The position numbers were made by a program, and so were the translations under genes. A DNA stretch of 64,000 nt from Thermotoga sp. KOL6. Its GTDB lineage: Bacteria; Thermotogota; Thermotogae; Thermotogales; Thermotogaceae. Of this stretch, positions 28,043 through 46,711 are shown piece after piece. Within the stretch, counting starts at the first letter, position 1, and every line of letters begins with the position of its first letter. Location: assembly GCF_002866025.1 (NCBI RefSeq), contig NZ_LNDE01000002.1:372001-436000 (forward strand). The letters are read 5' to 3'. The notes below the pieces were generated by a model that searched no databases, had not been told where the DNA came from, and was given only the letters and a program-made list of their open reading frames with translations.

Positions 28043-29692
28043 ATGAAAAAGTTAGTGATTTTCTTTTTGATTCTCTCTTCCTTGATCTTTGGAGCAACCT
28101 TTTATGGAAATCTTCACTCCCATACTTCCTACTCCGATGGGAAGGGAACACCGGACGAAGCTTACGAATATGCAAAGCAGTTTCTCGACGTGCTTGCGGT
28201 GACTGATCACGCTTATTATTTCGCTCAGAAGATAGACGGGAAGACCAAGCCTTATCTTACGAAACTCGCTGCGGAAAGGCATACAAAAGATGGTGAATTC
28301 GTTGCTCTCCAGGGTTTCGAATGGACGGCGGGTGTTGGTCACATAAACGTGTACGAATCGATCGAATGGATCGACAGAAACCAAGAGGGCTCCTTGGAGG
28401 GTTTCTACGCTTGGCTCGTGAAACATAAGAAACTTGCCCAGTTCAATCATCCCATAAGTAAGTTCGGCACCTTCGATTCCTTCAGGTACTTTCCCGAGGC
28501 TGATAAATACGTGAACCTGATAGAAGTTGGAAACGGGAATTGGTCCTCTGGTGACGTGATAAATCCTGAGATGTTTGGCAACTACATCTTAGCTCTGAAC
28601 AGAGGTTGGCATCTTGGAGCCACTGCCAACCAGGACAATCACAAACCAAACTGGGGTAGTGCGAACGACGCTAGAACTGGTATCATCGCTGATAAGTTGA
28701 CGTACGATGCCATCATGGATGCCCTTTGGAAAAGGCATACTTTTGGAAGTGAAGATAGGAACGTTCAGGTTCTCTTCAAGTCGGGAGAGCATCTGATGGG
28801 GGACGTTGTCTTCATCGATGATTTCTCACAAAAAACGCTGAGTATAGAGTACAAAGATACTGAGAAACTTCTCTATCTTGCTCTGATCTCCCAGAGTGGA
28901 ACGGTTCTCGAACTCAGACCTGGTACAGATCACTTGAAACTCGATCTGAAAGTCACTCCTCCAGATGGTTATGAGTGGTACTTCTTCTACATGAAGCAGA
29001 TGGACGGTGACGAGATCGTAACTTCCCCGATATGGTTCCAAATACCGTCTCCCGTTTATGTCAACAGCGTCAGAATTTCTCCAGAAGAAATCCACGCTGG
29101 AGAGGTTGCAAAACTGTACTTTGAAATATACAACACCACTGAAAACAAGGCGAAAGTTAATCTCATCATTTTGTTGGACGACGATCCGATCAGAAACGTA
29201 ACCCAGGAATTTGCACCTTACCAGCTCAAGAGATTCGTCGTTCCCACTGGAAAATTGGAAGAAGGGACACACAGAATTTCTTTCCTAGTGAATGGAAAAC
29301 TCGTCCAGTCGATTTCTTTCGTTGTCCAAGAAAAACTCAAAGGTGTCATCATGATAGACACCCTCCACGAGAACGACCATCTCGAAGAGTTGAGGGCACT
29401 CGCCGAAGAGTTGAAAAAAGCAGGGTACAACGTGATCTATCCGAAAGTGATGTTGAAGAACCTTGGAGGGATCGATATTCTCATCATCGCAACTCCGAAG
29501 GAAGGTGGCTTGAGTTTCGCCAAGAAACTCTCAAAAAAGGAATTGGAAGAGCTAGAAAAATTTGAAGGGAAATTGTACATAATACCGGGAGGAGATGAGG
29601 AGTACAGAGAGATCTATTTGAGTCAGCTGAAGGGAGAAGTGGTCACACTCGAGGAGCTGAGAAAGAGACTGCTTGGGGAGGGAGATAGTTGA
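28043..29692 (+). CDS. secreted CehA/McbA-family PHP-type metallohydrolase
   Basis: A 549-residue protein with a signal peptide (FFLILSSLIFGA) and a PHP metal-binding domain: NLHSHTSYSDGKG (metal His pair at the mature N-terminus), VLAVTDHAYY, LAQFNHPISKFG and HLGATANQDNH. This matches the CehA/McbA class, which includes phosphoester and carbamate hydrolases. A beta-sandwich domain of roughly 100 residues follows (about 330-430), then a Rossmann-like C-terminal domain with IPGGDEEYREI. It is the third plus-strand gene of the sugar-type ABC cluster (13 bases after permease two). It probably acts outside the membrane on the imported compound or its precursor; that role is inference. Confidence 0.85.
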   Translation: MKKLVIFFLILSSLIFGATFYGNLHSHTSYSDGKGTPDEAYEYAKQFLDVLAVTDHAYYFAQKIDGKTKPYLTKLAAERHTKDGEFVALQGFEWTAGVGHINVYESIEWIDRNQEGSLEGFYAWLVKHKKLAQFNHPISKFGTFDSFRYFPEADKYVNLIEVGNGNWSSGDVINPEMFGNYILALNRGWHLGATANQDNHKPNWGSANDARTGIIADKLTYDAIMDALWKRHTFGSEDRNVQVLFKSGEHLMGDVVFIDDFSQKTLSIEYKDTEKLLYLALISQSGTVLELRPGTDHLKLDLKVTPPDGYEWYFFYMKQMDGDEIVTSPIWFQIPSPVYVNSVRISPEEIHAGEVAKLYFEIYNTTENKAKVNLIILLDDDPIRNVTQEFAPYQLKRFVVPTGKLEEGTHRISFLVNGKLVQSISFVVQEKLKGVIMIDTLHENDHLEELRALAEELKKAGYNVIYPKVMLKNLGGIDILIIATPKEGGLSFAKKLSKKELEELEKFEGKLYIIPGGDEEYREIYLSQLKGEVVTLEELRKRLLGEGDS

Positions 29693-36328: not shown

Positions 36329-36355
36329 AGTATAGTGTTGTTATGGGATTCTCAA
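36329..36355 (-). promoter_or_regulatory. possible promoter for TPR-glycosyltransferase gene
   Basis: On the minus strand, TTGAGA (36355-36350) and TATACT (36334-36329), 15 bases apart, lie at the end of the upstream sulfatase-fold gene and precede a 112-base leader. The spacing is short, so support is modest. Confidence 0.35.
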
Positions 36356-37684
36356 GAATTTTTTCCAATATCTATTTTTTAACGTATACCTCAAAAGTTC
36401 ATGCTTGAAATTTTTCATGTAAGATTGTATTTCTTCAGGAATTTGAGAGGTATCTTCTATTTTCGAGGGATATTGCTCTTTAGGATCTGCCCTCAGATCG
36501 AACAAGTATAACTGCCCGTCTAGTTTCATAAGTTTTTTATCTTTTGTTCTAATGCACCAGTTGTGAATACCCTTTTTCAATGGATCGTGTGCAATACTAT
36601 CTTTCCTTCTGAACCCTTCGCAGTATATGTACTCCCTTGTGTCTTTTCCTCCAAACAAAGTATCTTTTCCCACGAATTCCTTAGGTTTTTCGCCGAATAG
36701 AAACCTTGATATTGATGGAGCAAGGTCCACAAGCGAGACAAGTTTCTTTTTCTCAGAGTTTCTTTCTTCTTGTGAAAATTTTTCATTTCCCACTTTGACA
36801 ATCAATGGTACTCTAATAATTTCTTCGAAAGGTTTTGGAAGATGATCAAAATTCCCATGTTCAAGAAATTCTTCACCGTGGTCTGAAGTTATTATCACGA
36901 TGGTATCTCTTAGAATCCCCATGGTATCGAGCGCATTTAGAAGTCTTCCTATGTGGTGTTCTACTATCTCTAAGCCTTGTGTATACCAATCTTCAGCTAG
37001 TGTCCGCCATTTTTTTGCTTCTTCTCTCGAAAATTTTCCTCTGTCTCTAAAGAATTTGTTTATCAAAAACCTTTCTCTCAAAGATTGTTCCCACAGGCCT
37101 TGATAAGGTCCATGAACGTCCATGAAATCAATGAAAGCAAAAAAGCGCTGGTTTTTATTCTCTTTCAACAGTTCTATGAACTTATCAATTTGGTTTTGTG
37201 CTTTGTATATTATTGCCACATTTAGTAGTATTTTGAATATCTCCGATGCCTTATAAGTTAGATTACCTAGTTTCATTTTCTCAAGGGCTTTTTTTATTTT
37301 TGATTTCAGAAACCTTTTTTTCAATTCCATTTTACGCTCGCTCTGCCAAAAAATAATTCCCCTTGCATACCCGTACAAATCCGATACGTATATATTTCCA
37401 CCGTCGGATCCAAAGGTCACATAACCCTTTTGTTTCAAATACTCCGCAAAAGTTAAAGGGGCATGTATAACCCCTGGAGTCACCGTTTGAGAAGAATAAA
37501 TAGAAGCTAGAATACCTGGAAAAGAAAAAGGTGTGCTCGTTCCAGAGGAAAAGGCATGATCATATATTAACCCTTGACTTGCAATCTCATCGAGGATGGG
37601 AGTTTTGTGAGATTTCTCGAAACTTTCTGAGCAGCTTACATAATCATATCTCAATGTATCAATAACTAGGAAAAGAATATTCAT
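36341..37684 (-). CDS. sulfatase/phosphoglycerol-transferase-fold enzyme (alkaline phosphatase superfamily)
   Basis: A 447-residue protein with the metal sites of the superfamily: LFLVIDTLRYDYVS at the N-terminus, FIDFMDVHGPYQGL (metal His), and IITSDHGEEFLEHGNFDH. The nucleophile region reads SSGTSTPFSFPGILAS; the C/S-x-P-x-R motif needed for formylglycine conversion is absent, so a classical sulfatase is unlikely. Ser- or Thr-using phosphotransferases of the LtaS/EptA kind or a phosphodiesterase fit better. No membrane segments, so it appears cytoplasmic. First gene of the minus-strand group, divergent from the sulfate operon. Confidence 0.85.
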   Translation of the reverse strand: MNILFLVIDTLRYDYVSCSESFEKSHKTPILDEIASQGLIYDHAFSSGTSTPFSFPGILASIYSSQTVTPGVIHAPLTFAEYLKQKGYVTFGSDGGNIYVSDLYGYARGIIFWQSERKMELKKRFLKSKIKKALEKMKLGNLTYKASEIFKILLNVAIIYKAQNQIDKFIELLKENKNQRFFAFIDFMDVHGPYQGLWEQSLRERFLINKFFRDRGKFSREEAKKWRTLAEDWYTQGLEIVEHHIGRLLNALDTMGILRDTIVIITSDHGEEFLEHGNFDHLPKPFEEIIRVPLIVKVGNEKFSQEERNSEKKKLVSLVDLAPSISRFLFGEKPKEFVGKDTLFGGKDTREYIYCEGFRRKDSIAHDPLKKGIHNWCIRTKDKKLMKLDGQLYLFDLRADPKEQYPSKIEDTSQIPEEIQSYMKNFKHELLRYTLKNRYWKKFLRIP

Positions 37685-38020: not shown

Positions 38021-38623
38021 ATGGATCCCAAGGCCAAGAATATTGTGTGGCACGAAGGGAAGGTTAAGAAAGAGGATCGGGAAAAACTCCTTGGCCAGAA
38101 AGGAGTAGTCGTATGGCTCACGGGGCTTCCGGGTTCGGGGAAATCCACCATTGCTCATGAACTGGAATGGAGATTGCTTGAAAGAGGAAAACTTGCTTAC
38201 GTTCTAGATGGAGACAATATAAGACACGGTTTGAACAGTGATCTTGGTTTCTCGCCGGAGGACAGAAAGGAAAACATAAGGAGAATAAGTGAGGTGGCGA
38301 AACTCTTTGCAGATGCAGGGATCATCACTATCACGGCGTTCATTTCTCCTTACAGAGAAGATAGAAGAAGAGCTAGATCTCTTTTGAAAGAAGGAGAATT
38401 CATAGAGATTTATGTGAAATGTCCTCTTGAAGTACTCATAAAGAGAGATCCAAAGGGATTGTACAAAAGAGCTCTGAAAGGAGAAATAAAAGAATTTACA
38501 GGGATTTCCGCCCCCTACGAGGAACCAGAAAATCCCGAATTGATCGTAGAAACCGACAAAGAAAGCGTGGAGGAATCTGTTGGAAAAATCCTAAAGTATC
38601 TCGAAGAGAAAGGAATAATATAA
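38021..38623 (+). CDS. cysC: adenylylsulfate (APS) kinase
   Basis: Phosphorylates APS at the 3' position to give PAPS, the sulfate donor. The 200-residue protein has a short N-terminal extension, Walker [10 protein letters not shown] (35-43), the substrate segment [20 protein letters not shown] (shown in two parts: [20 protein letters not shown]), [12 protein letters not shown] and the lid around [20 protein letters not shown]. All known key residues are present. The ATG follows AAGGGAGGGG. It sits in one run with sat (41498), so the pathway ATP sulfurylase then APS kinase is complete. Confidence 0.97.
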
Positions 38624-38642: not shown

Positions 38643-39470
38643 ATGTTTGTGGATTTTCATGTACACACAAGTGCATCCGATGGTAGTTTCGCGCCAACAG
38701 AAGTGATAAAGATGGCTACAGACAAGGGCATAGAGGTTCTTTCAATAACTGATCACGATACTGTTGAAGGGGTACAAGAAATTTCTGGAGTAGAAGGGAT
38801 CGTTTTTGTTCCCGGAGTTGAGATCAGTTCGGAGTATCCTCGAACTTTGCATATTTTGGGATACGCCATAGATCCTTTTCACGAGAAATTGTGTGCGGTC
38901 TTGAAAGATCTGCAAGAATTTCGTAAAAAAAGAAACCTTCTGATCGTTGAAAAGATGAATCAAATGGGTTTTCATATAACGTTAGAAGAGCTCATAAAAG
39001 AAGCAGGTGGAGGGTTAGTCGGAAGACTCCATTTCGCTAGTTTGATGGTGAAAAAAGGTTTTGTCTCCAATTATCAGGAGGCTTTCGATAGATACTTGGG
39101 GAAAGGGAAACCTTTGTACATTGACAAAAAGCGTCTCCAACCGGACGAAGCTATCGGACTTATACTGGCAGCAGGTGGCATACCAGTTCTTGCACATCCT
39201 TATCAAGCGGAGGAAGATGAAGAAAAGTTGGAAGATCTTGTGAAAAAGTTAGCCGGTTTTGGCTTGAAAGGTATAGAAGTTTTCTACTCGAAGCACAACG
39301 AAAGAAGGATTTCAAAATATTTAGAGTTGGCCAAGAAATATGATCTGTTAGTGACTGCCGGCACCGACTTTCACGGTGAGAACAAGCCAGATATTCCACT
39401 GGGGATCAGTGTTCAGTACTATTATTTGAGAGAATTTCTTAGTGAAATTGAAGGGAGGTGTGTGTTATGA
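38643..39470 (+). CDS. PHP-domain phosphoesterase (TrpH/YciV-like), candidate pAp phosphatase
   Basis: A 275-residue cytoplasmic PHP protein with all metal motifs: FHVHTSASDGS (His6, His8), ITDHDTVEG, PGVEISSEY, VLAHPYQ and GTDFHG. It belongs with the TrpH/YciV class; E. coli YciV removes the 3' phosphate from nucleoside 3',5'-bisphosphates. Between cysC and sat, the natural candidate substrate is pAp, the product of sulfate transfer from PAPS, whose removal would relieve product inhibition. That substrate is inference from family and context. ATG after GGGGTGAAGG; the stop overlaps the next start. Confidence 0.9.
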   Translation: MFVDFHVHTSASDGSFAPTEVIKMATDKGIEVLSITDHDTVEGVQEISGVEGIVFVPGVEISSEYPRTLHILGYAIDPFHEKLCAVLKDLQEFRKKRNLLIVEKMNQMGFHITLEELIKEAGGGLVGRLHFASLMVKKGFVSNYQEAFDRYLGKGKPLYIDKKRLQPDEAIGLILAAGGIPVLAHPYQAEEDEEKLEDLVKKLAGFGLKGIEVFYSKHNERRISKYLELAKKYDLLVTAGTDFHGENKPDIPLGISVQYYYLREFLSEIEGRCVL

Positions 39471-39679
39471 AACAAGTTAACATTCCTGACGATCTGTATG
39501 AAGCCATTGAAAAAAAACTTGATGAATATGGTTTCAAAACGGTGGATGAGTATGTTACGTTCGTTTTAAAAGAGGTGATAAACACAGATGAAAAGGGTTC
39601 TGAGGATACGGATGTGTTTTCTGAAGAGGAAGAAGAAATCATAAAAAAGAGATTGAGAGATTTGGGATACCTGGATTGA
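39467..39679 (+). CDS. second small RHH-like protein
   Basis: A 70-residue protein starting with VNIPDDLYEAIEKKLDEYGF and TVDEYVTFVLKEVI, again the RHH pattern, and ending EEIIKKRLRDLGYLD after an acidic linker. The end matches that of the 37759 protein, and the two are probably paralogues. The ATG (39467) overlaps the stop of the PHP gene after GGGAGGTG. The same C-terminal pattern (RLxxLGY) is common at the ends of some alkaline-phosphatase-fold proteins (recalled), and such enzymes are nearby. Confidence 0.75.
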   Translation: MKQVNIPDDLYEAIEKKLDEYGFKTVDEYVTFVLKEVINTDEKGSEDTDVFSEEEEEIIKKRLRDLGYLD

Positions 39680-39680
39680 G

Positions 39681-41030
39681 ATGAAGAAGAAGGTTGTTTT
39701 TCTGGTTTCATTGGTCCTCTTTGTCTTACCGTTTTTCCTTTCACCGCCCTTTGATCTAAGTGAGGAAGGGTTCAAGACCCTAGTTATTTTTGCAATTTGT
39801 ACCCTTTGGTGGATCACAAACGTTGTACCTATCATGATAACAAGTCTTTTCGCAATTATCTCATTCCCTCTGTTGGGATTGGCGAGCTCAGAGGAGGTCT
39901 ATTCTTATTTTGGTAACACTTCTGTTTTCTTTTTAATAGGCTCTTTCATCATCAGTTCTGTGTTGAGAAGAAACGGTATCACACAAAAAGTAGCTTTAAA
40001 GTTCATAGAAACTTTTGGGAAAAACCCAAAAAGATTGATTCTAAGTGTTCTTTTTTCTTCTTATTTTCTGTCTCTGTGGATGCTCAGTCATGCGGTGGTA
40101 GCAGTTTTGTTGCCCATTGTGCTAGAAATAGCGAGCAATATGGAAGAGGGGAGTGAAAAGTTTGCAAAAGCGCTTTTGCTTGGAACTTTTTGGGGAGCAG
40201 TTTTGGGAGGTAACACTACCCTTCTTGGAGGTGCACGAGCACCTCTCGTTTTTGCTATGTTTCAACCCTACTTTGCTAGAAGGTTAACCTTTCTCAAATG
40301 GATTTTGGCTTCTCTTCCCATTACAGGAACTTTGCTTCTTTTTTCATCGTTTTTTCTCATCAAATTGACGCCTAATTTAGAAATGGAAAAAATAAGGAAA
40401 TTTCTTCGGTCAAGTATGAAGGAAGACACACTCTCTTCTAAGAAGATTTTCATCATTGCTGTCACCATAGTTACCATCTTTCTTTGGATGTTCGCAGGAG
40501 AACGAATAGGAGTTGCAAACATAGCGTTAGGAGCAGTAATTGTTCTTTTCTTTATGGATGCGGTCAGCTGGGGAGAGGTAGAGGAAGATGTAAATTGGGG
40601 AGTTATTCTCATGTACGGTGGAGCCATTGTGTTGGGAAGAATGGTGAGCAAGACAGGTTTGGCAGAGTGGATCGTTTCTCACCTGAAAATGGAAGTTCTC
40701 TCTCCTACTGTTCTGTTCTTTACAATGATAATAGGTGGTATGCTTTTAACGGAGGTGATGAGTAATTCCGCTGCCGCAGTGGTGTTGACGCAATTCGCTA
40801 TTCCACTTTTAGGGAGTATGAAGATACCTCCAGAAGCTGTGGCAGTGATGGTTTCCATGGTAACAGGATTTTCTTTCATGTTCCCAACAGGTTCACCGAG
40901 TGCTGCGTTGATTGCATCGACCGGATACATACAAATAAAAGATCTCGTAAAATACGGTGCTTTCATAGCTTTTTTATCTTTTGTTGTCTTCGTTGTTTTT
41001 GTGAACACTCTTTGGAAGTGGATCTTTTAG
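39681..41030 (+). CDS. SLC13/DASS-type anion transporter, candidate sulfate importer
   Basis: A 449-residue membrane protein with about eleven segments. Family features: TLWWITNVVPIMITSLFA, the first SNT-like loop GGNTTLLGGARAP, and the second loop MSNSAAAVVLTQFAIPL with PTGSPSAALIAS. SLC13 members move sulfate or dicarboxylates with sodium. The position between cysC and sat makes sulfate the likely cargo. The ATG follows the RHH gene by one base, with a weak ribosome site, suggesting coupled translation. Confidence 0.9.
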   Translation: MKKKVVFLVSLVLFVLPFFLSPPFDLSEEGFKTLVIFAICTLWWITNVVPIMITSLFAIISFPLLGLASSEEVYSYFGNTSVFFLIGSFIISSVLRRNGITQKVALKFIETFGKNPKRLILSVLFSSYFLSLWMLSHAVVAVLLPIVLEIASNMEEGSEKFAKALLLGTFWGAVLGGNTTLLGGARAPLVFAMFQPYFARRLTFLKWILASLPITGTLLLFSSFFLIKLTPNLEMEKIRKFLRSSMKEDTLSSKKIFIIAVTIVTIFLWMFAGERIGVANIALGAVIVLFFMDAVSWGEVEEDVNWGVILMYGGAIVLGRMVSKTGLAEWIVSHLKMEVLSPTVLFFTMIIGGMLLTEVMSNSAAAVVLTQFAIPLLGSMKIPPEAVAVMVSMVTGFSFMFPTGSPSAALIASTGYIQIKDLVKYGAFIAFLSFVVFVVFVNTLWKWIF

Positions 41031-41043
41031 GAGGCTTGATGAT

Positions 41044-41484
41044 GTGAAACTTGTCACCTTATTTTTGGATTTTGAGTGGAATCCTTTGGTGTTTTTGAAG
41101 GTCATAAAAAACGCCAGCGTGGTGAAGATCGTTCCTCTAATCGATGAGAATCTGATATCGCTTTCTATGGAATTGATATCGGAAAAAGGATGGTTGGGCA
41201 AGCATGAAATGGATGTTCTTATAAACACTCTGAAGAAACAGTTGGAGAAACAAGAAGAAAAGTTCTTGAGTGAAATGGAGAGGATTTTAAAAGAACGAAA
41301 TGTGGTTTACGTTATTGAAAGGAGAGAGGGCAACTTGAAAAAAGTTCTGATAGATCTTTTTTCTGAAAAACCGGATAAAGTGGTGATTTTCATAAGGAGG
41401 AGAAACCCTCTTCTGAAGGTGGTTAAGCCCATCTTACGAGGCATTATGAAAAATCATCAAAAAATCGAGATTGTGAAGGTGTAA
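41044..41484 (+). CDS. unknown protein, UspA-like at the C-terminus
   Basis: A 146-residue protein between transporter and sat. The second half (a helix with [20 protein letters not shown], then [20 protein letters not shown]) recalls the universal stress protein pattern of a DLIVIG-type strand, a glycine loop and a helix, but the usual ATP-binding glycines are not evident. USP domains often travel with transporters, so a regulatory role for the SLC13-type gene is possible. I do not recognise it firmly. GTG start 9 bases after AGGAGG. Confidence 0.55.
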
Positions 41485-41497
41485 GGAGGTGTTTGTT

Positions 41498-42670
41498 GTG
41501 ATAAACCCCCATGGTGGACATTTAGTAAACAGGATTGTAGAAGTGGAAGAAAAAAAGGAGTGGGAAAGGAAAGCGAAAGAAATGAAAAAAATCACTGTGT
41601 CGTACTGGGATCTATCTGAGCTGGAAAACATCGCCACTGGGTTGTTCAGTCCATTGGAGGGTTTCATGGTGAAAGAGGACTACGATTCTGTGCTTGACGA
41701 TATGAGACTCGCAAATGGAGTAGTTTGGACTATTCCTGTTGTTCTTTCGATTCCTAAGGAGATAGCGAGGGAAATAAGAGTTGGTGATTGGGTAGCTATA
41801 CATGGAGAGGACGGGAAATTGTACGCTGTGATGAAAGTTGGTGATAAATACGAAAGGCGAAAAAGAGAAGAGGCCAAAAAAGTTTATAGGACGGAGGAAG
41901 ATGCTCATCCAGGCGTTGCATTTCTTTATTCTCAAGGAGATGTTTGTTTAGGAGGTAAAATCTGGCTTTTGAGCAGGGTAGAACATAAAAACTTTATTGA
42001 GTACAGATTTGATCCAAAGGATACTAGGAGAATTTTCCAGGAAAGGGGATGGAAAACAGTTGTAGCGTTTCAGACGAGAAATCCTATTCATAGAGCACAC
42101 GAGTATCTTCAGAAAGTGGCTCTGGAGATTGTCGATGGGCTGTTCATAAATCCGCTCGTTGGAAAAACAAAAAAAGGAGACATCCCTGCAGATGTGAGGA
42201 TGAAAACTTACGAGGTGATCATAGAAAAGTATTATCCGCAGGAAAGAGTTTTCTTAGGTGTTTTTCCCGTGAACATGAGATATGCGGGACCCAGGGAGGC
42301 CGTTTTCCACGCGATCTGTAGAAAAAATTACGGATGTACTCATTTTATCGTAGGAAGAGATCATGCAGGAGTGGGAAATTACTATGGAACGTATGAAGCA
42401 CAGGAGATATTTGATGAGTTCAAGCCGGAAGAAATAGAAATTGTACCTTTGAAATTCGAGCATGCTTTCTACTGTAAAAAATGCCAAGGAATGGCAACTA
42501 AGAAAACGTGCCCTCATCCAGATGAAGATCACGTCTATTTGAGCGGAACAAAGGTAAGAGAAATGCTTTCCAAAGGTGTCATGCCTCCTCCTGAATTTAC
42601 AAGACCGGAGGTTGCAAAGATACTGATGGATTACTATATGGGAAGAAGCTATTCTGAGCAAGTGAGGTGA
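41498..42670 (+). CDS. sat: ATP sulfurylase (sulfate adenylyltransferase)
   Basis: Makes APS and pyrophosphate from ATP and sulfate. The 390-residue protein is the homo-oligomeric archaeal/bacterial type: FSPLEGFM, the [13 protein letters not shown] nucleotide motif (QxRNP and HxxH, about residue 190), [24 protein letters not shown] and the zinc-binding FYCKKCQ...CPHPDEDH with SGTKVREML. No APS-kinase domain is fused; cysC supplies it. The GTG at 41498 follows AAGGAGGT by 7 bases and begins [11 protein letters not shown], the archaeal style of start. No CysDN-type subunits are found here. Confidence 0.97.
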
Positions 42671-42675
42671 TGACA

Positions 42676-43995
42676 ATGAAAAAAGTAGCAGTAATAGGCT
42701 TAGACTGTGCAGATCCGAAATTGGTTTTCGAAGAATTCTGGGAAGAACTTCCAAATATGAGAAAACTTGCGAAGAGTTATGGACCTTTGAGATCCACAAT
42801 TCCACCCATAACAGTCCCTGCTTGGATGAGTATGATGACTGCAAAAGATCCTGGGGAGTTGGGAATATACGGTTTCAGGAACAGAAAAAGCTACGAATAT
42901 GACTCTGTTGTTTTTGCTAACTCGAGGATGATAAAGTATCCCACCGTTTGGGACACACTTGGGATCAGAAGTTACAAATCGATCGTTTTGGGGGTACCTT
43001 TGACGTATCCTCCGAAAAAGATAAATGGATGCATGGTGACGTCCTTTTTAACACCAGGCCTTGACGTTGAATACACTTATCCCCCTGAGTTGAAAGAAGA
43101 GATAAGTAAATGGGTGGGAAAATACATGTTCGACGTGGAAAATTTTAGAACGGAGAACAAGCAACTTGTGATCGACCAAGTTTATGAAATGACGGACAAG
43201 CGTTTCGAAGTGGCAAAACATTTAGTAACGGAAAAAGAGTGGGATTTTTTCATAATGGTTGAAATGGGTCCAGATAGAATGCATCATGCACTTTGGGCGC
43301 ACCACGATCCCACACACTTCAAACACGATCCAAATAGCCCTTACAAAAATGCAATAAGAGACTATTACAAGTATCTAGACGAAAAAATAGGCAATCTCGT
43401 TTCTCTGTTTCCTGATGATACAGTAGTGATTGTCGTTTCTGATCATGGAATACAGAAGATGGAGGGAGGTATCGCGGTAAACGATTGGTTGATAGAAAGG
43501 GGATATCTTGTTTTGAAAGAAAAACCAAAGGTACCGACACGCATAGGCCAGCTCATTAAGGAAGGAAAGATCGACTGGGAAAAGACGAAAGCATGGGGGT
43601 TAGGTGGATACTACGGGAGAATCTTTATAAACGTTGAGGGGAGGGAACCAAACGGTATCGTCAAAAAGGAGGAATACGAAGATTTCAGGGACGAGTTAAT
43701 AAAAGAGTTGGAATCTATAACTGATGAGCATGGGAACAATATAGGAACCAAAGTCTTTAAACCTGAAGAGGTTTACAAAAAGGTCAATAACATTGCACCC
43801 GATTTGATTGTGTATTTTGGAAATCTCAGGTGGCGTTCCATTGGAAGTGTGGGAAACGATACGATATGGCTTCACGAGAACGACACGGGACCGGACGATG
43901 CGAATCACGCTGAGGACGGCATAATTATCTCGTCCGAAGGGCAGGTTCCTAGGAGTATATATGAGGTGAGAGATTTCATTTTGAGTTTCTTCTGA
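42676..43995 (+). CDS. type I phosphodiesterase/nucleotide pyrophosphatase-like protein
   Basis: Alkaline phosphatase superfamily enzyme of 439 residues. The metal and nucleophile region is VIGLDCADP then PPITVPAWMSMMTAKDPG (Thr probable nucleophile), followed by MVEMGPDRMHHALW and VVSDHGIQKMEGG, and a final HAEDGIIISSEG. No signal peptide or anchor, so the enzyme is cytoplasmic. Such enzymes cleave phosphodiester or pyrophosphate bonds in nucleotides or act on glycan-lipid intermediates; it could turn over APS, PAPS or a sugar nucleotide. Starts at ATG 42676, 6 bases after GAGGTG. Confidence 0.9.
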   Translation: MKKVAVIGLDCADPKLVFEEFWEELPNMRKLAKSYGPLRSTIPPITVPAWMSMMTAKDPGELGIYGFRNRKSYEYDSVVFANSRMIKYPTVWDTLGIRSYKSIVLGVPLTYPPKKINGCMVTSFLTPGLDVEYTYPPELKEEISKWVGKYMFDVENFRTENKQLVIDQVYEMTDKRFEVAKHLVTEKEWDFFIMVEMGPDRMHHALWAHHDPTHFKHDPNSPYKNAIRDYYKYLDEKIGNLVSLFPDDTVVIVVSDHGIQKMEGGIAVNDWLIERGYLVLKEKPKVPTRIGQLIKEGKIDWEKTKAWGLGGYYGRIFINVEGREPNGIVKKEEYEDFRDELIKELESITDEHGNNIGTKVFKPEEVYKKVNNIAPDLIVYFGNLRWRSIGSVGNDTIWLHENDTGPDDANHAEDGIIISSEGQVPRSIYEVRDFILSFF

Positions 43996-44012: not shown

Positions 44013-45506
44013 TTGGAGACACGGTACGAGAATTACTTGAAAACCACTGTAAAGCAAGCAGGAATGGTTTTTTTCGTCAGAGTTGTTGGCTATCTACTTG
44101 GATTTGTTTTGCAACTTGTTTTTGCAAGGCTCCTTGGGGTAGGTCTGTACGGGCTTTATTCACTTGGTTTTACAGTTGTCAATGTAGGTGTCTTGTTTTC
44201 CACTCTTGGAATGAGCTCTGGTGCGGTGAGATTCTTAGGAGAATATGTAGGAAAAAGAGAGTGGGGTAAAGTTAGGTTTCTTTTGGGAGTGATTTTCAAA
44301 ACTTCCCTTGTGGTCTCATCTGCAAGCGCAATTTTTCTAGTTGTTTTCAGGCGTCCTCTCGCACGAGTTTTCAACGAACCTCAACTTGAAGGTCTTTTCA
44401 TCTGGTTTTCCGCTGTTATTTTCTTCTATACACTTATGAACATTCTCTCTGGGATTTTTCAAGGTTTTAAAAAACCTTCGATCTTTGTATTCTGGAAAGA
44501 CGTTATGGAGAGAAGTTTGAGAATAGCCTTTTTTATTACCTTTTATTTGATAGGATTGAAGTTGATGGGAGCAGTTGTGGCAACGGTCATTTCATCTATC
44601 ATAGTTGTTCTATCGCTGTTTTCCAATCTTGTCAAGCTCACTCGACCGTTTTGGAAGGAAGAGATTTCTCCAATCGATATAAAGAGTTTCTTTACGTATT
44701 CACTGAGCATGCTTTTTGTAGGATTCACATATTTTCTAATGGGTCAGGTGAACCAGCTGATACTGGGTGTATTCTCTGATTCTACCAGTGTTGGTTTGTA
44801 CACAATCGCCAACACTGTTGCTCAACTCCTTGTGTTCTTTCTCGGCAGTTTCAACATGATTTTTGCGCCTATTATATCTGAACTCTATCACACAGGGCAA
44901 AAGGAAACTTTATCAAGAATGTATTCCAATCTTACAAGGTGGATTGTCTCATTGACTACTCCTTTGTTCTTGTGGATAGTGAGCTTTTCAAAAGAGATAC
45001 TCGCATTGTTTGGTACAGACTATATTGCTGCAAGAAATGCTTTGATCGTGCTTTCTGTTGCTCAATTGGTGAACGCAGCGGTTGGATCGAATGGTTTTCT
45101 ACTTTCAATGACAAAATACCAGAGATACGAGATGTTGAATGGGGTGGTAGTAGCCTCTCTGAACGTGGTGTTGAATATCTTGCTTGTTCCAAAATACGGT
45201 GTTTTGGGATCTGCTGTGGGAGGAGCCCTTGCGATAGCAAGTGTGAATATAATAAAAATGATAGAGGTATATTTTGCTTTGAGGATGATTCCTTACAATT
45301 TGAGATACATAAAACCCATAATTGCCAGTGTAATAGTATGGGTAGTCTTCATGTTTTTGAGACACATATTTGGTGGTTTTGTCCTTGTCTTAGTGAGTTT
45401 ATTGGCTGGGTTTGTTACAATGTTTCTTGTGCTTTCACTTTTGGGACTATATGAGGAAGATAAAATGATATTAAGAAGTATTTTCAGGAGGTTGAAAAAA
45501 TTATGA
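44013..45506 (+). CDS. Wzx-type lipid-linked oligosaccharide flippase
   Basis: A 497-residue membrane protein with 14 predicted segments, MATE/MVF-like polysaccharide translocase superfamily. Typical stretches: VRVVGYLLGFVLQLVFARLL at the N-terminus, a long PTR/GxxxG central part, and the C-terminal half with LNVVLNILLVPKYGVLGSAV. It would flip undecaprenyl-linked repeat units. TTG start after GGAGGGG. It is embedded in the sulfate operon, tying sulfate activation to export of a glycan. The stop overlaps the start of the next gene. Confidence 0.9.
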   Translation: METRYENYLKTTVKQAGMVFFVRVVGYLLGFVLQLVFARLLGVGLYGLYSLGFTVVNVGVLFSTLGMSSGAVRFLGEYVGKREWGKVRFLLGVIFKTSLVVSSASAIFLVVFRRPLARVFNEPQLEGLFIWFSAVIFFYTLMNILSGIFQGFKKPSIFVFWKDVMERSLRIAFFITFYLIGLKLMGAVVATVISSIIVVLSLFSNLVKLTRPFWKEEISPIDIKSFFTYSLSMLFVGFTYFLMGQVNQLILGVFSDSTSVGLYTIANTVAQLLVFFLGSFNMIFAPIISELYHTGQKETLSRMYSNLTRWIVSLTTPLFLWIVSFSKEILALFGTDYIAARNALIVLSVAQLVNAAVGSNGFLLSMTKYQRYEMLNGVVVASLNVVLNILLVPKYGVLGSAVGGALAIASVNIIKMIEVYFALRMIPYNLRYIKPIIASVIVWVVFMFLRHIFGGFVLVLVSLLAGFVTMFLVLSLLGLYEEDKMILRSIFRRLKKL

Positions 45507-46711
45507 TCAACGATAGATTGAATGTTTTTGTGGTAATAACAGATTGTTTGAGATATGATGCTTTTCAAGGAATGGAAATAAAAAAGTATGGTAAAGTGAT
45601 AGAAAATGTGTATTCTTCGGCTCCTAGTACTTTCTTTGCCGTGCCGTCAATCTTAACGGGAACTCTACCGTTTCAGGTGATAAAGGATGCACGGATAAAC
45701 AGTGAGGCTTACACTTATCTCCCTCTCGTTGCATGGAAGTATGGGTATCAAACTCTATTTGTAACAGGAAATGTTGTAACTTCCCGGGCGTACGGCTACT
45801 ATATAAAGGAGGGAATATTCGAAGACTTTTTGAAAATCAGAAAATTACCTCCTAGTGATTTGGGGCTTCAGAAAGAAGGAAAAGTAAGAAAAGTAGTAAG
45901 GAATATTCTGAAAAGATATCCAAGGATTTTTTACATCGCGAAAATTACGTACCATCTGTTAAAGAAAGATCTAAAAAATCAAAACACAGCTTTTGAAAAC
46001 AAAATACGAACTGGAGTGATAATAGATTATTTATCAAAGCAGAAATTTTTATCCGAAAAGCCCATCTTTGGTTTTATTCACTTGATGGATACACACGCAC
46101 CTTATGGTTCTCCACACCTTCGAAAGCAAGATCTCAAGAAAGCCGCTAGGCTGGTAAGAAAACTTTATGGACATCCTACCCTTTTGAAAGAAAAAGAGAT
46201 AGAGCTGTTGAAATATTTCTATCAAACGGAAGTTGAGTATCTTGATGATGCTCTAGAAGAATTGTTAAATTTGATCGATAAAAAATTTAATCTTAAGCAA
46301 TCTGTTGTTATTGTAGTCTCTGATCATGGAGAAGCCTTTGGTGAGGGAGGGTATTTCACGCATCCTGATTTTGGTTTGATAAAGGAAATTTTGAAGGTTC
46401 CTTTGGTCATGTTTGGAAATGTTGGTGGTATAAAAGTCGTAGGGCAAGGTATTTTGCCAAGTTGGAAAATCCATGAGATTGTTCTCAAGATCTTTTCAGG
46501 GCAAAAGGAGATAACAGTCGAGCGCGAGAAAGAAGCTTTAGCTATTGGATACAAAAGAGAAGATAAAAAGTACAAAATAGTCAAGTATGCTAGAATCGCA
46601 AATGATAAAATTGTGGTGCAAGAGGATCTTGAAACAATCAACAGATTACTCATTGAAAAGAGAAGAGAGTATATGTTGAATAAATTAAGGCGCAAGTTAT
46701 CAAAACAATGA
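45503..46711 (+). CDS. sulfatase-fold enzyme, second copy type (alkaline phosphatase superfamily)
   Basis: A 402-residue protein with VFVVITDCLRYDAFQG, SSAPSTFFAVPSILTGTLP (nucleophile loop), FIHLMDTHAPYG, VIVVSDHGEAFGEGG. It shares the layout of the 36341 gene product but is only distantly similar. Again no C/S-x-P-x-R motif for formylglycine. A soluble phospho- or sulfo-transferase or hydrolase acting on a polysaccharide precursor is possible. ATG overlaps the stop of the flippase gene, and it is the last gene of the plus-strand sulfate run; a convergent glycosyltransferase gene ends 18 bases away. Confidence 0.85.
   Translation: MINDRLNVFVVITDCLRYDAFQGMEIKKYGKVIENVYSSAPSTFFAVPSILTGTLPFQVIKDARINSEAYTYLPLVAWKYGYQTLFVTGNVVTSRAYGYYIKEGIFEDFLKIRKLPPSDLGLQKEGKVRKVVRNILKRYPRIFYIAKITYHLLKKDLKNQNTAFENKIRTGVIIDYLSKQKFLSEKPIFGFIHLMDTHAPYGSPHLRKQDLKKAARLVRKLYGHPTLLKEKEIELLKYFYQTEVEYLDDALEELLNLIDKKFNLKQSVVIVVSDHGEAFGEGGYFTHPDFGLIKEILKVPLVMFGNVGGIKVVGQGILPSWKIHEIVLKIFSGQKEITVEREKEALAIGYKREDKKYKIVKYARIANDKIVVQEDLETINRLLIEKRREYMLNKLRRKLSKQ

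Follow-up and report, generated by a model that had tools for sequence, protein, structure and literature searches.

Within the 64,000-nt stretch of Thermotoga sp. KOL6 DNA analyzed here (the window), a gene encoding a 275-aa phosphoesterase of the PHP family (38643-39470, plus strand) follows the APS kinase gene cysC, and the locus raises the question of which reaction a PHP enzyme performs in a gene cluster devoted to PAPS production. On the evidence of its open reading frame, family assignments, PDB relatives, structure model and fold matches, we propose that the protein is a pAp 3'-phosphatase, with clean-up of pAp as its most likely role. A laterally mobile PAPS module in which the PHP protein clears pAp is the best explanation of the locus as a whole, and we assign it a probability of about 0.7. 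Individual genomes and loci are referred to below by G and L numbers, G000 being the host genome (1.71 Mb in 6 contigs, 99.93% complete).

Organization of the gene cluster

Nine genes form a run in the order cysC, PHP gene, 70-aa gene, DASS transporter gene, 146-aa gene, sat, AlkP-family phosphodiesterase (PDE) gene, flippase gene and a further AlkP-family gene, with intergenic gaps of 19 bp or less and 4-bp overlaps at three junctions. The first of them, cysC (38021-38623, plus strand), encodes an APS kinase of 200 aa (APS_kinase, 234.9 bits; apsK, 277.6 bits, cut-off 138.7). The PHP gene has an ATG start located 19 bp past the end of cysC, and its stop is overlapped by 4 bp by the 70-aa gene (39467-39679, plus strand). 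The latter has no Pfam or NCBIfam family over cut-off, resembles ribbon-helix-helix/CopG-like proteins by eye only, and has copies of 65-71% identity in G086, G084 and G045 (70% in G086). The first-pass annotation had placed the PHP gene directly between cysC and a transporter, which holds on the cysC side; on the other, the 70-aa gene intervenes.

Downstream lie genes for (i) a DASS-family anion transporter (39681-41030, plus strand; TIGR00785, 216.8 bits, cut-off 198.6), whose substrate, judged from the context, is probably sulfate; (ii) a 146-aa protein (41044-41484, plus strand) with no Pfam or NCBIfam family over cut-off; (iii) the ATP sulfurylase Sat (41489-42670, plus strand; 393 aa), assigned by Pfam and NCBIfam matches; (iv) the PDE, a type I phosphodiesterase/nucleotide pyrophosphatase of the AlkP superfamily (42667-43995, plus strand; PF01663, a phylum-wide search and fold matches), which has no PDB relative by sequence and is proposed to act as a pyrophosphatase; (v) a polysaccharide flippase family protein (44013-45506, plus strand; PF01943 and PF13440); and (vi) an AlkP/sulfatase-superfamily protein that ends the run (45503-46711, plus strand; PF00884). 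In several modules a copy of the 146-aa protein, only 24-30% identical, is encoded at the corresponding site, after the transporter gene and before sat. The flippase gene also adjoins the module in G086, G084, G045 and G098.

A divergent gene for another AlkP/sulfatase-superfamily protein (36341-37684, minus strand; PF00884) has relatives adjoining the module in G084 and G098. The module is thus flanked by two sulfatase-superfamily proteins, relatives of which recur at the modules of G084, G098 and G045. The motif C/S-x-P-x-R, characteristic of true sulfatases, was not seen by eye in either product, so the two proteins may be transferases. Genes for glycosyltransferases, a Wzy-type ligase and a sugar transferase are found on one or both sides of the module. 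Promoter-like sites showed no excess over shuffled sequences (16 vs. 18.7). The window contains a second PHP-type protein (28043-29692, plus strand; 549 aa), with a signal-like N-terminus, the PHP-like start NLHSHTSYSDG and a weak PF02811 match (20.4 bits, under cut-off).

Family, fold and active site of the PHP protein

The product of 38643-39470 matches the Pfam PHP family (PF02811, 33.8 bits, cut-off 26.4). Its highest-scoring NCBIfam model is NF041577 (3',5'-nucleoside bisphosphate phosphatase; 206.2 bits, below the equivalog cut-off of 400), followed by NF047791 (RNase AM/RNM; 174.9 bits, below the equivalog cut-off of 375) and a cyclic phosphate diphosphodiesterase model (101.1 bits, likewise under its equivalog cut-off). 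The PDB relatives are 2yb1 (Cv1693 of Chromobacterium violaceum, E-value 7e-36), the RNase AM proteins 9etk and 7ug9, and 3e0f (Bad_1165). A structure model (mean pLDDT 94.6) gave its best fold match to 2yb1 (Z 34.0, rmsd 2.4 over 273 residues), followed by 9etk (Z 32.2) and 3e0f (Z 31.1), while the best match outside the group 2yb1/9etk/3e0f/3o0f/7ug9 reached Z 16.6. The inositol monophosphatase/FIG fold of CysQ was not found, Pfam, NCBIfam and fold all indicating PHP, and no DHH family of Pfam or NCBIfam matched the product. Cv1693, a 3',5'-nucleotide bisphosphatase, and RNase AM are therefore the nearest relatives of the protein. Since Cv1693 is cited as a PHP pAp phosphatase (PMC8268124, in excerpt), enzymes of this kind are already known as such, and the bisphosphatase kinship suggested earlier is borne out.

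Residues of the PHP protein were mapped, through an alignment with the PDB relatives, onto the RNase AM sites named in the accessible part of PMC9410882. The complete metal motifs reported in the first-pass annotation were confirmed, with counterparts of all eight RNase AM metal ligands (H6, D13, H38, E60, H70, H185, D242 and H244). R94, R97 and R128 correspond to the three arginines surrounding the 5'-phosphate in RNase AM and F148 to its base-stacking Phe, and these four residues are invariant across 25 Thermotogota sequences. One residue differs: R201 of RNase AM, the Arg of HPGR that bridges to a bound sulfate, is replaced by Q188 (HPYQ). Arg occurs at this position in none of 30 Thermotogota PHP sequences, so the Gln is a trait of the family and no mark of the operon copies; Bad_1165 lacks the Arg as well. 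Cv1693 has in common with the Thermotoga protein the PHP fold with its insert domain, the metal ligands, the 5'-phosphate arginines and the stacking Phe, at 31% identity in the structural alignment, and differs from it in the HPGR Arg. According to the entry title, the ligands bound in 2yb1 are AMP and phosphate; it is the 3'-phosphate that this enzyme cleaves off. We know of no PAPS-operon location for Cv1693.

Distribution and history of the PHP gene in Thermotogota

Matches to the PHP protein at an E-value of about 1e-30 or better were collected from 103 Thermotogota genomes. They were present in 73 genomes (partial in G001), a strong cysC match was present in 22, and 21 genomes had both. 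In five of these 21 (G000, G086, G084, G005 and G045) the PHP gene lies within ~2 kb of cysC, for which a rough binomial estimate, not corrected for relatedness, gives a chance of 2e-8. In G100, the PHP gene adjoins the PDE gene and sat where the contig ends, and cysC is found on a separate short contig; no link between PHP and cysC was seen in the remaining 15. Within the host family (14 genomes) the PHP gene occurs only in G000, the one genome with the complete module. Since 52 of the 73 genomes have no strong cysC match, the PHP protein must have a different role there. In six genomes (loci L019, L020, L021, L022, L023 and L026) the unlinked PHP relative directly adjoins the gene of a DHH-family protein of ~295 aa, whose PF01368 match is weak in the one checked; here, too, phosphoesterases of two types are neighbors.

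The PDE gives a second view of the module. Fifteen genomes contain relatives of it at full or almost full length (that of G004 is cut by a contig end), with the two weak matches of G036 and G037 (25% identity) left out of the count. Strong cysC matches accompany them in 13 of the 15, compared with 9 of the 88 other genomes (Fisher's p 4e-9, relatedness ignored). The PDE gene lies beside sat or cysD-cysN in 7 of the 15, and a PHP gene shares five of these seven loci (G000, G086, G084, G045 and G100); in the other two, G098 (5.6 kb) and G004 (3.6 kb), the contigs end inside the module. To these, G005 adds a PHP gene beside cysC. The sat, PDE and flippase genes of G098 show 84-92% identity, and its genome (94% complete) contains no PHP match, which runs counter to a fixed link between PHP and module. 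G004 has a distant PHP on a different contig. In the four further genomes examined (G035, G049, G050 and G051), the PDE gene adjoins a TauE-like gene, away from cysC. A scan of genome contigs with the PDE alignment returned 4 loci only, one of them the G084 contig; its patterns are narrow and a poor gauge of spread.

A tree was built from the best 30 of the 73 Thermotogota PHPs. Six linked copies require three changes on this tree, two of them forced by well-supported branches, and a constraint uniting the six in one clade was rejected (p-AU 0.009); uniting five of them, without G100, was marginally rejected (p-AU 0.0497). As the module copies form no single clade, the link between PHP and module arose more than once. 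The PHPs of G084, G045 and G005 cluster (94/92, not starred) although they come from three families, which suggests transfer of the PHP gene along with the module.

These data also bear on the closest alternative, in which the PHP protein is a Thermotogota housekeeping 5'-3' exoribonuclease of the RNase AM (YciV/RNM) type whose gene came to lie beside cysC; it would act on short RNA ends, with pAp hydrolysis incidental or secondary. RNase AM (7ug9, 9etk) has the same fold and catalytic site and is nearly as close in NF047791 score and in the 9etk comparison, and most Thermotogota relatives of the PHP protein lie far from cysC, beside unrelated genes. However, the family score is lower, the HPGR Arg is absent, the genomic setting points to PAPS through repeated linkage to cysC or the PDE gene across unrelated lineages, in the host family the PHP gene occurs only with the module, and a comparable cluster elsewhere carries a PAP phosphatase. 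We consider a mainly ribonucleolytic role unlikely, while noting that both activities may hold, because one site serves both.

PAPS production, its use and the clearance of pAp

The proposed module would begin with the import of sulfate by the DASS transporter and the formation of APS by ATP sulfurylase, the pyrophosphate released being cleared by the AlkP-family PDE; APS kinase would then convert APS to PAPS. From PAPS the sulfuryl group would be passed to an acceptor by some further enzyme; the position of the module among genes for glycosyltransferases, a ligase and a flippase makes a surface glycan a possible acceptor. The by-product pAp would be converted to AMP by the PHP protein, which would remove the 3'-phosphate by the three-metal mechanism of Cv1693. 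Gene order, family, fold, conserved ligands and distribution are what the present analysis contributes to this scheme; the enzyme activities are those published for Cv1693, the DHH PAP phosphatases and TON_1705. Removal of pAp matters to any user of PAPS, because this nucleotide is an inhibitor of PAPS reductases, sulfotransferases and enzymes that degrade RNA (PMC8268124, in excerpt).

A counterpart of this arrangement is an archaeal cluster that encodes a CopG protein, ATP sulfurylase, a DHH PAP phosphatase, a type I PDE and APS kinase, and whose DHH enzyme was shown to convert pAp to AMP (both from an excerpt of PMC8268124). In the Thermotoga cluster, ATP sulfurylase, APS kinase and a type I PDE likewise lie in one run, the DHH PAP phosphatase is absent and the PHP gene is found in its stead; a DASS transporter and a flippase are added. 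The known DHH PAP phosphatases (PYCH_17540, TON_1706 and MtPAPP, 8a8k) occupy a like place, with sulfurylase, APS kinase, PDE and a small CopG-like gene, but have the DHH/DHHA1 fold, which is unrelated to PHP. CysQ, too, has in common with the PHP protein only the proposed reaction (pAp to AMP), its fold being that of the FIG superfamily. Within the Thermotogota modules the PHP protein thus appears, by analogy, to hold the role of the DHH PAP phosphatase.

A bacterial parallel is provided by the Kerfeldbacteria contig L129, in which sat, a DHH protein gene and a PDE gene are consecutive, with cysC further on. The only PDB relative of this DHH protein is the PAP phosphatase 8a8k (E-value 2e-14), for which PMC10322725 reports a fast reaction and high specificity for PAP; in the 103 Thermotogota genomes it gave no match, in a search run without a positive control. 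In two Ktedonobacteria loci with PDE, cysC and sat no pAp enzyme was found, one of them (L128) being only 4.4 kb long. In Thermococcus, TON_1704-1707 are named as APS kinase, pyrophosphatase, PAP phosphatase and ATP sulfurylase (PMC4463584, in excerpt), and TON_1705 is tabulated as a pyrophosphatase (PMC9653972, in excerpt). The PDE of the present module was likened to TON_1705 by its position in the cluster; given the activity reported for TON_1705, a pyrophosphatase role is preferred for the PDE, and it is disfavored as the missing PAPS consumer.

As to other enzymes for pAp, which the first-pass annotation proposed to check as cysQ or nrnA, the answer differs between the two. G000 encodes an NrnA ortholog, a DHH/DHHA1 protein of 333 aa that is near-identical to TM1595 (TmPDE; E-value 2.4e-191) and aligns with it end-to-end. 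Proteins of this type, unrelated in fold to PHP, were found in 102 of the 103 Thermotogota genomes regardless of cysC. The NrnA ortholog may also act on pAp, so the PHP protein need not be the sole pAp phosphatase. The efficiency of NrnA on pAp is disputed, NrnA-like proteins of other bacteria being described as poor on this substrate in the available part of PMC9757072. The single IMPase-family gene of G000 (contig C1, 470313-471050) was considered as cysQ; FBPase/IMPase and HisN models score above CysQ, with none over cut-off. Because CysQ scores lower and every one of the 14 host-family genomes carries a gene of this kind, the gene was not called cysQ. The earlier idea of a non-homologous replacement is thus fair with respect to DHH and CysQ enzymes, whereas NrnA is still present. 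The sole genome without an NrnA match, G045, bears a module-linked PHP (module on L081) among three full PHP copies, and has two DHHA1 matches compared with three in its six genus mates; it represents a natural test of PHP standing in for NrnA.

The description of the locus as a sulfate operon was correct insofar as cysC and sat make PAPS; an assimilatory pathway, however, is not apparent. In G000 a search for PAPS reductases of the usual type (PF01507), as distinct from atypical archaeal-type ones like the Methanothermococcus enzyme (PMC10322725, in excerpt), gave TtuA, involved in tRNA thiolation, as its sole match, and thus no PAPS reductase. Neither a sulfite reductase domain (NIR_SIR) nor the standard sulfotransferases Sulfotransfer_3 and Sulfotransfer_1 were matched in this genome. 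These four families were searched for in a selection of 10 among the 103 genomes, and G086 was equally without a match to any of them. With no reductase or standard sulfotransferase found, the operon seems to serve a use of PAPS other than sulfate assimilation. G095, of the same genus as G086, presents a contrasting, assimilatory-like set: cysC, sat, CysH (ORF 3506-4285 of L078) and a sulfite reductase domain lie within ~7 kb, a 266-aa protein adjacent to CysH and near cysC is ThiF/MoeB, and a PHP of the present family is absent. Sulfotransferases are present in other cysC genomes, that of G009 having sat and cysC as its immediate neighbors on either side, and at least two uses of cysC therefore seem to exist in Thermotogota.

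Two further readings were weighed. Were the PHP protein to act mainly on PAPS or APS, guarding against excess activated sulfate, its operon position would fit equally, and a homolog of the enzyme in the archaeal slot is reported to degrade PAPS besides pAp (PMC8268124, in excerpt). Such an enzyme would, however, wastefully destroy the product of its own operon, and it is the 3'-phosphate that is removed in 2yb1; we regard this role as improbable. Some PHP proteins (CpsB/YwqE) are part of capsule loci, and the glycosyltransferases, Wzy-type ligase, sugar transferase and flippase around the module would suit an enzyme of a surface-polysaccharide locus acting on a phosphorylated sugar or a regulatory phosphoprotein, but this is very improbable given a fold score to CpsB/YwqE of Z ~9 compared with 34, the retained counterparts of the nucleotide contacts, and the PHP gene beside cysC in G005, on a 9.4-kb contig where no glycan genes were recognized.

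Clearance of pAp by the PHP protein remains the preferred reading, with several points against it: NrnA is present, PHP is common without cysC, G095 has cysC and CysH and no such PHP, the family scores lie under the equivalog cut-offs, the HPGR Arg is Gln, and the Ktedonobacteria loci showed no pAp enzyme. Among the papers listed by our literature searches, none describes a link between a PHP enzyme and a PAPS operon. If the reading is correct, the clean-up enzyme would be swappable between unrelated folds even within one mobile module, and a PHP family so far annotated by domain alone would gain a function. The operon also points to some further use of PAPS in a thermophile seemingly without known PAPS consumers. 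A bolder version, advanced only tentatively, is that PHP represents a third unrelated fold of dedicated PAP phosphatase, besides FIG/CysQ and DHH, recruited repeatedly in Thermotogota, and that the module feeds an undescribed sulfuryl-transfer enzyme working on a surface glycan, possibly one of the AlkP-superfamily proteins retained next to the module; the second part is suggested by the lack of a known PAPS reductase or sulfotransferase in the genome. Among the papers listed for sulfated polysaccharide in Thermotoga, none has this subject in its title.

A different combination was observed in G051, in which cysC, an IMPase-family gene (7113-7898 of L084), a TauE-like gene and a sulfotransferase gene (PF00685) share one contig, the cysC neighbor of 246 aa being TauE. 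L084 is perhaps a CysQ-type version of the PAPS module.
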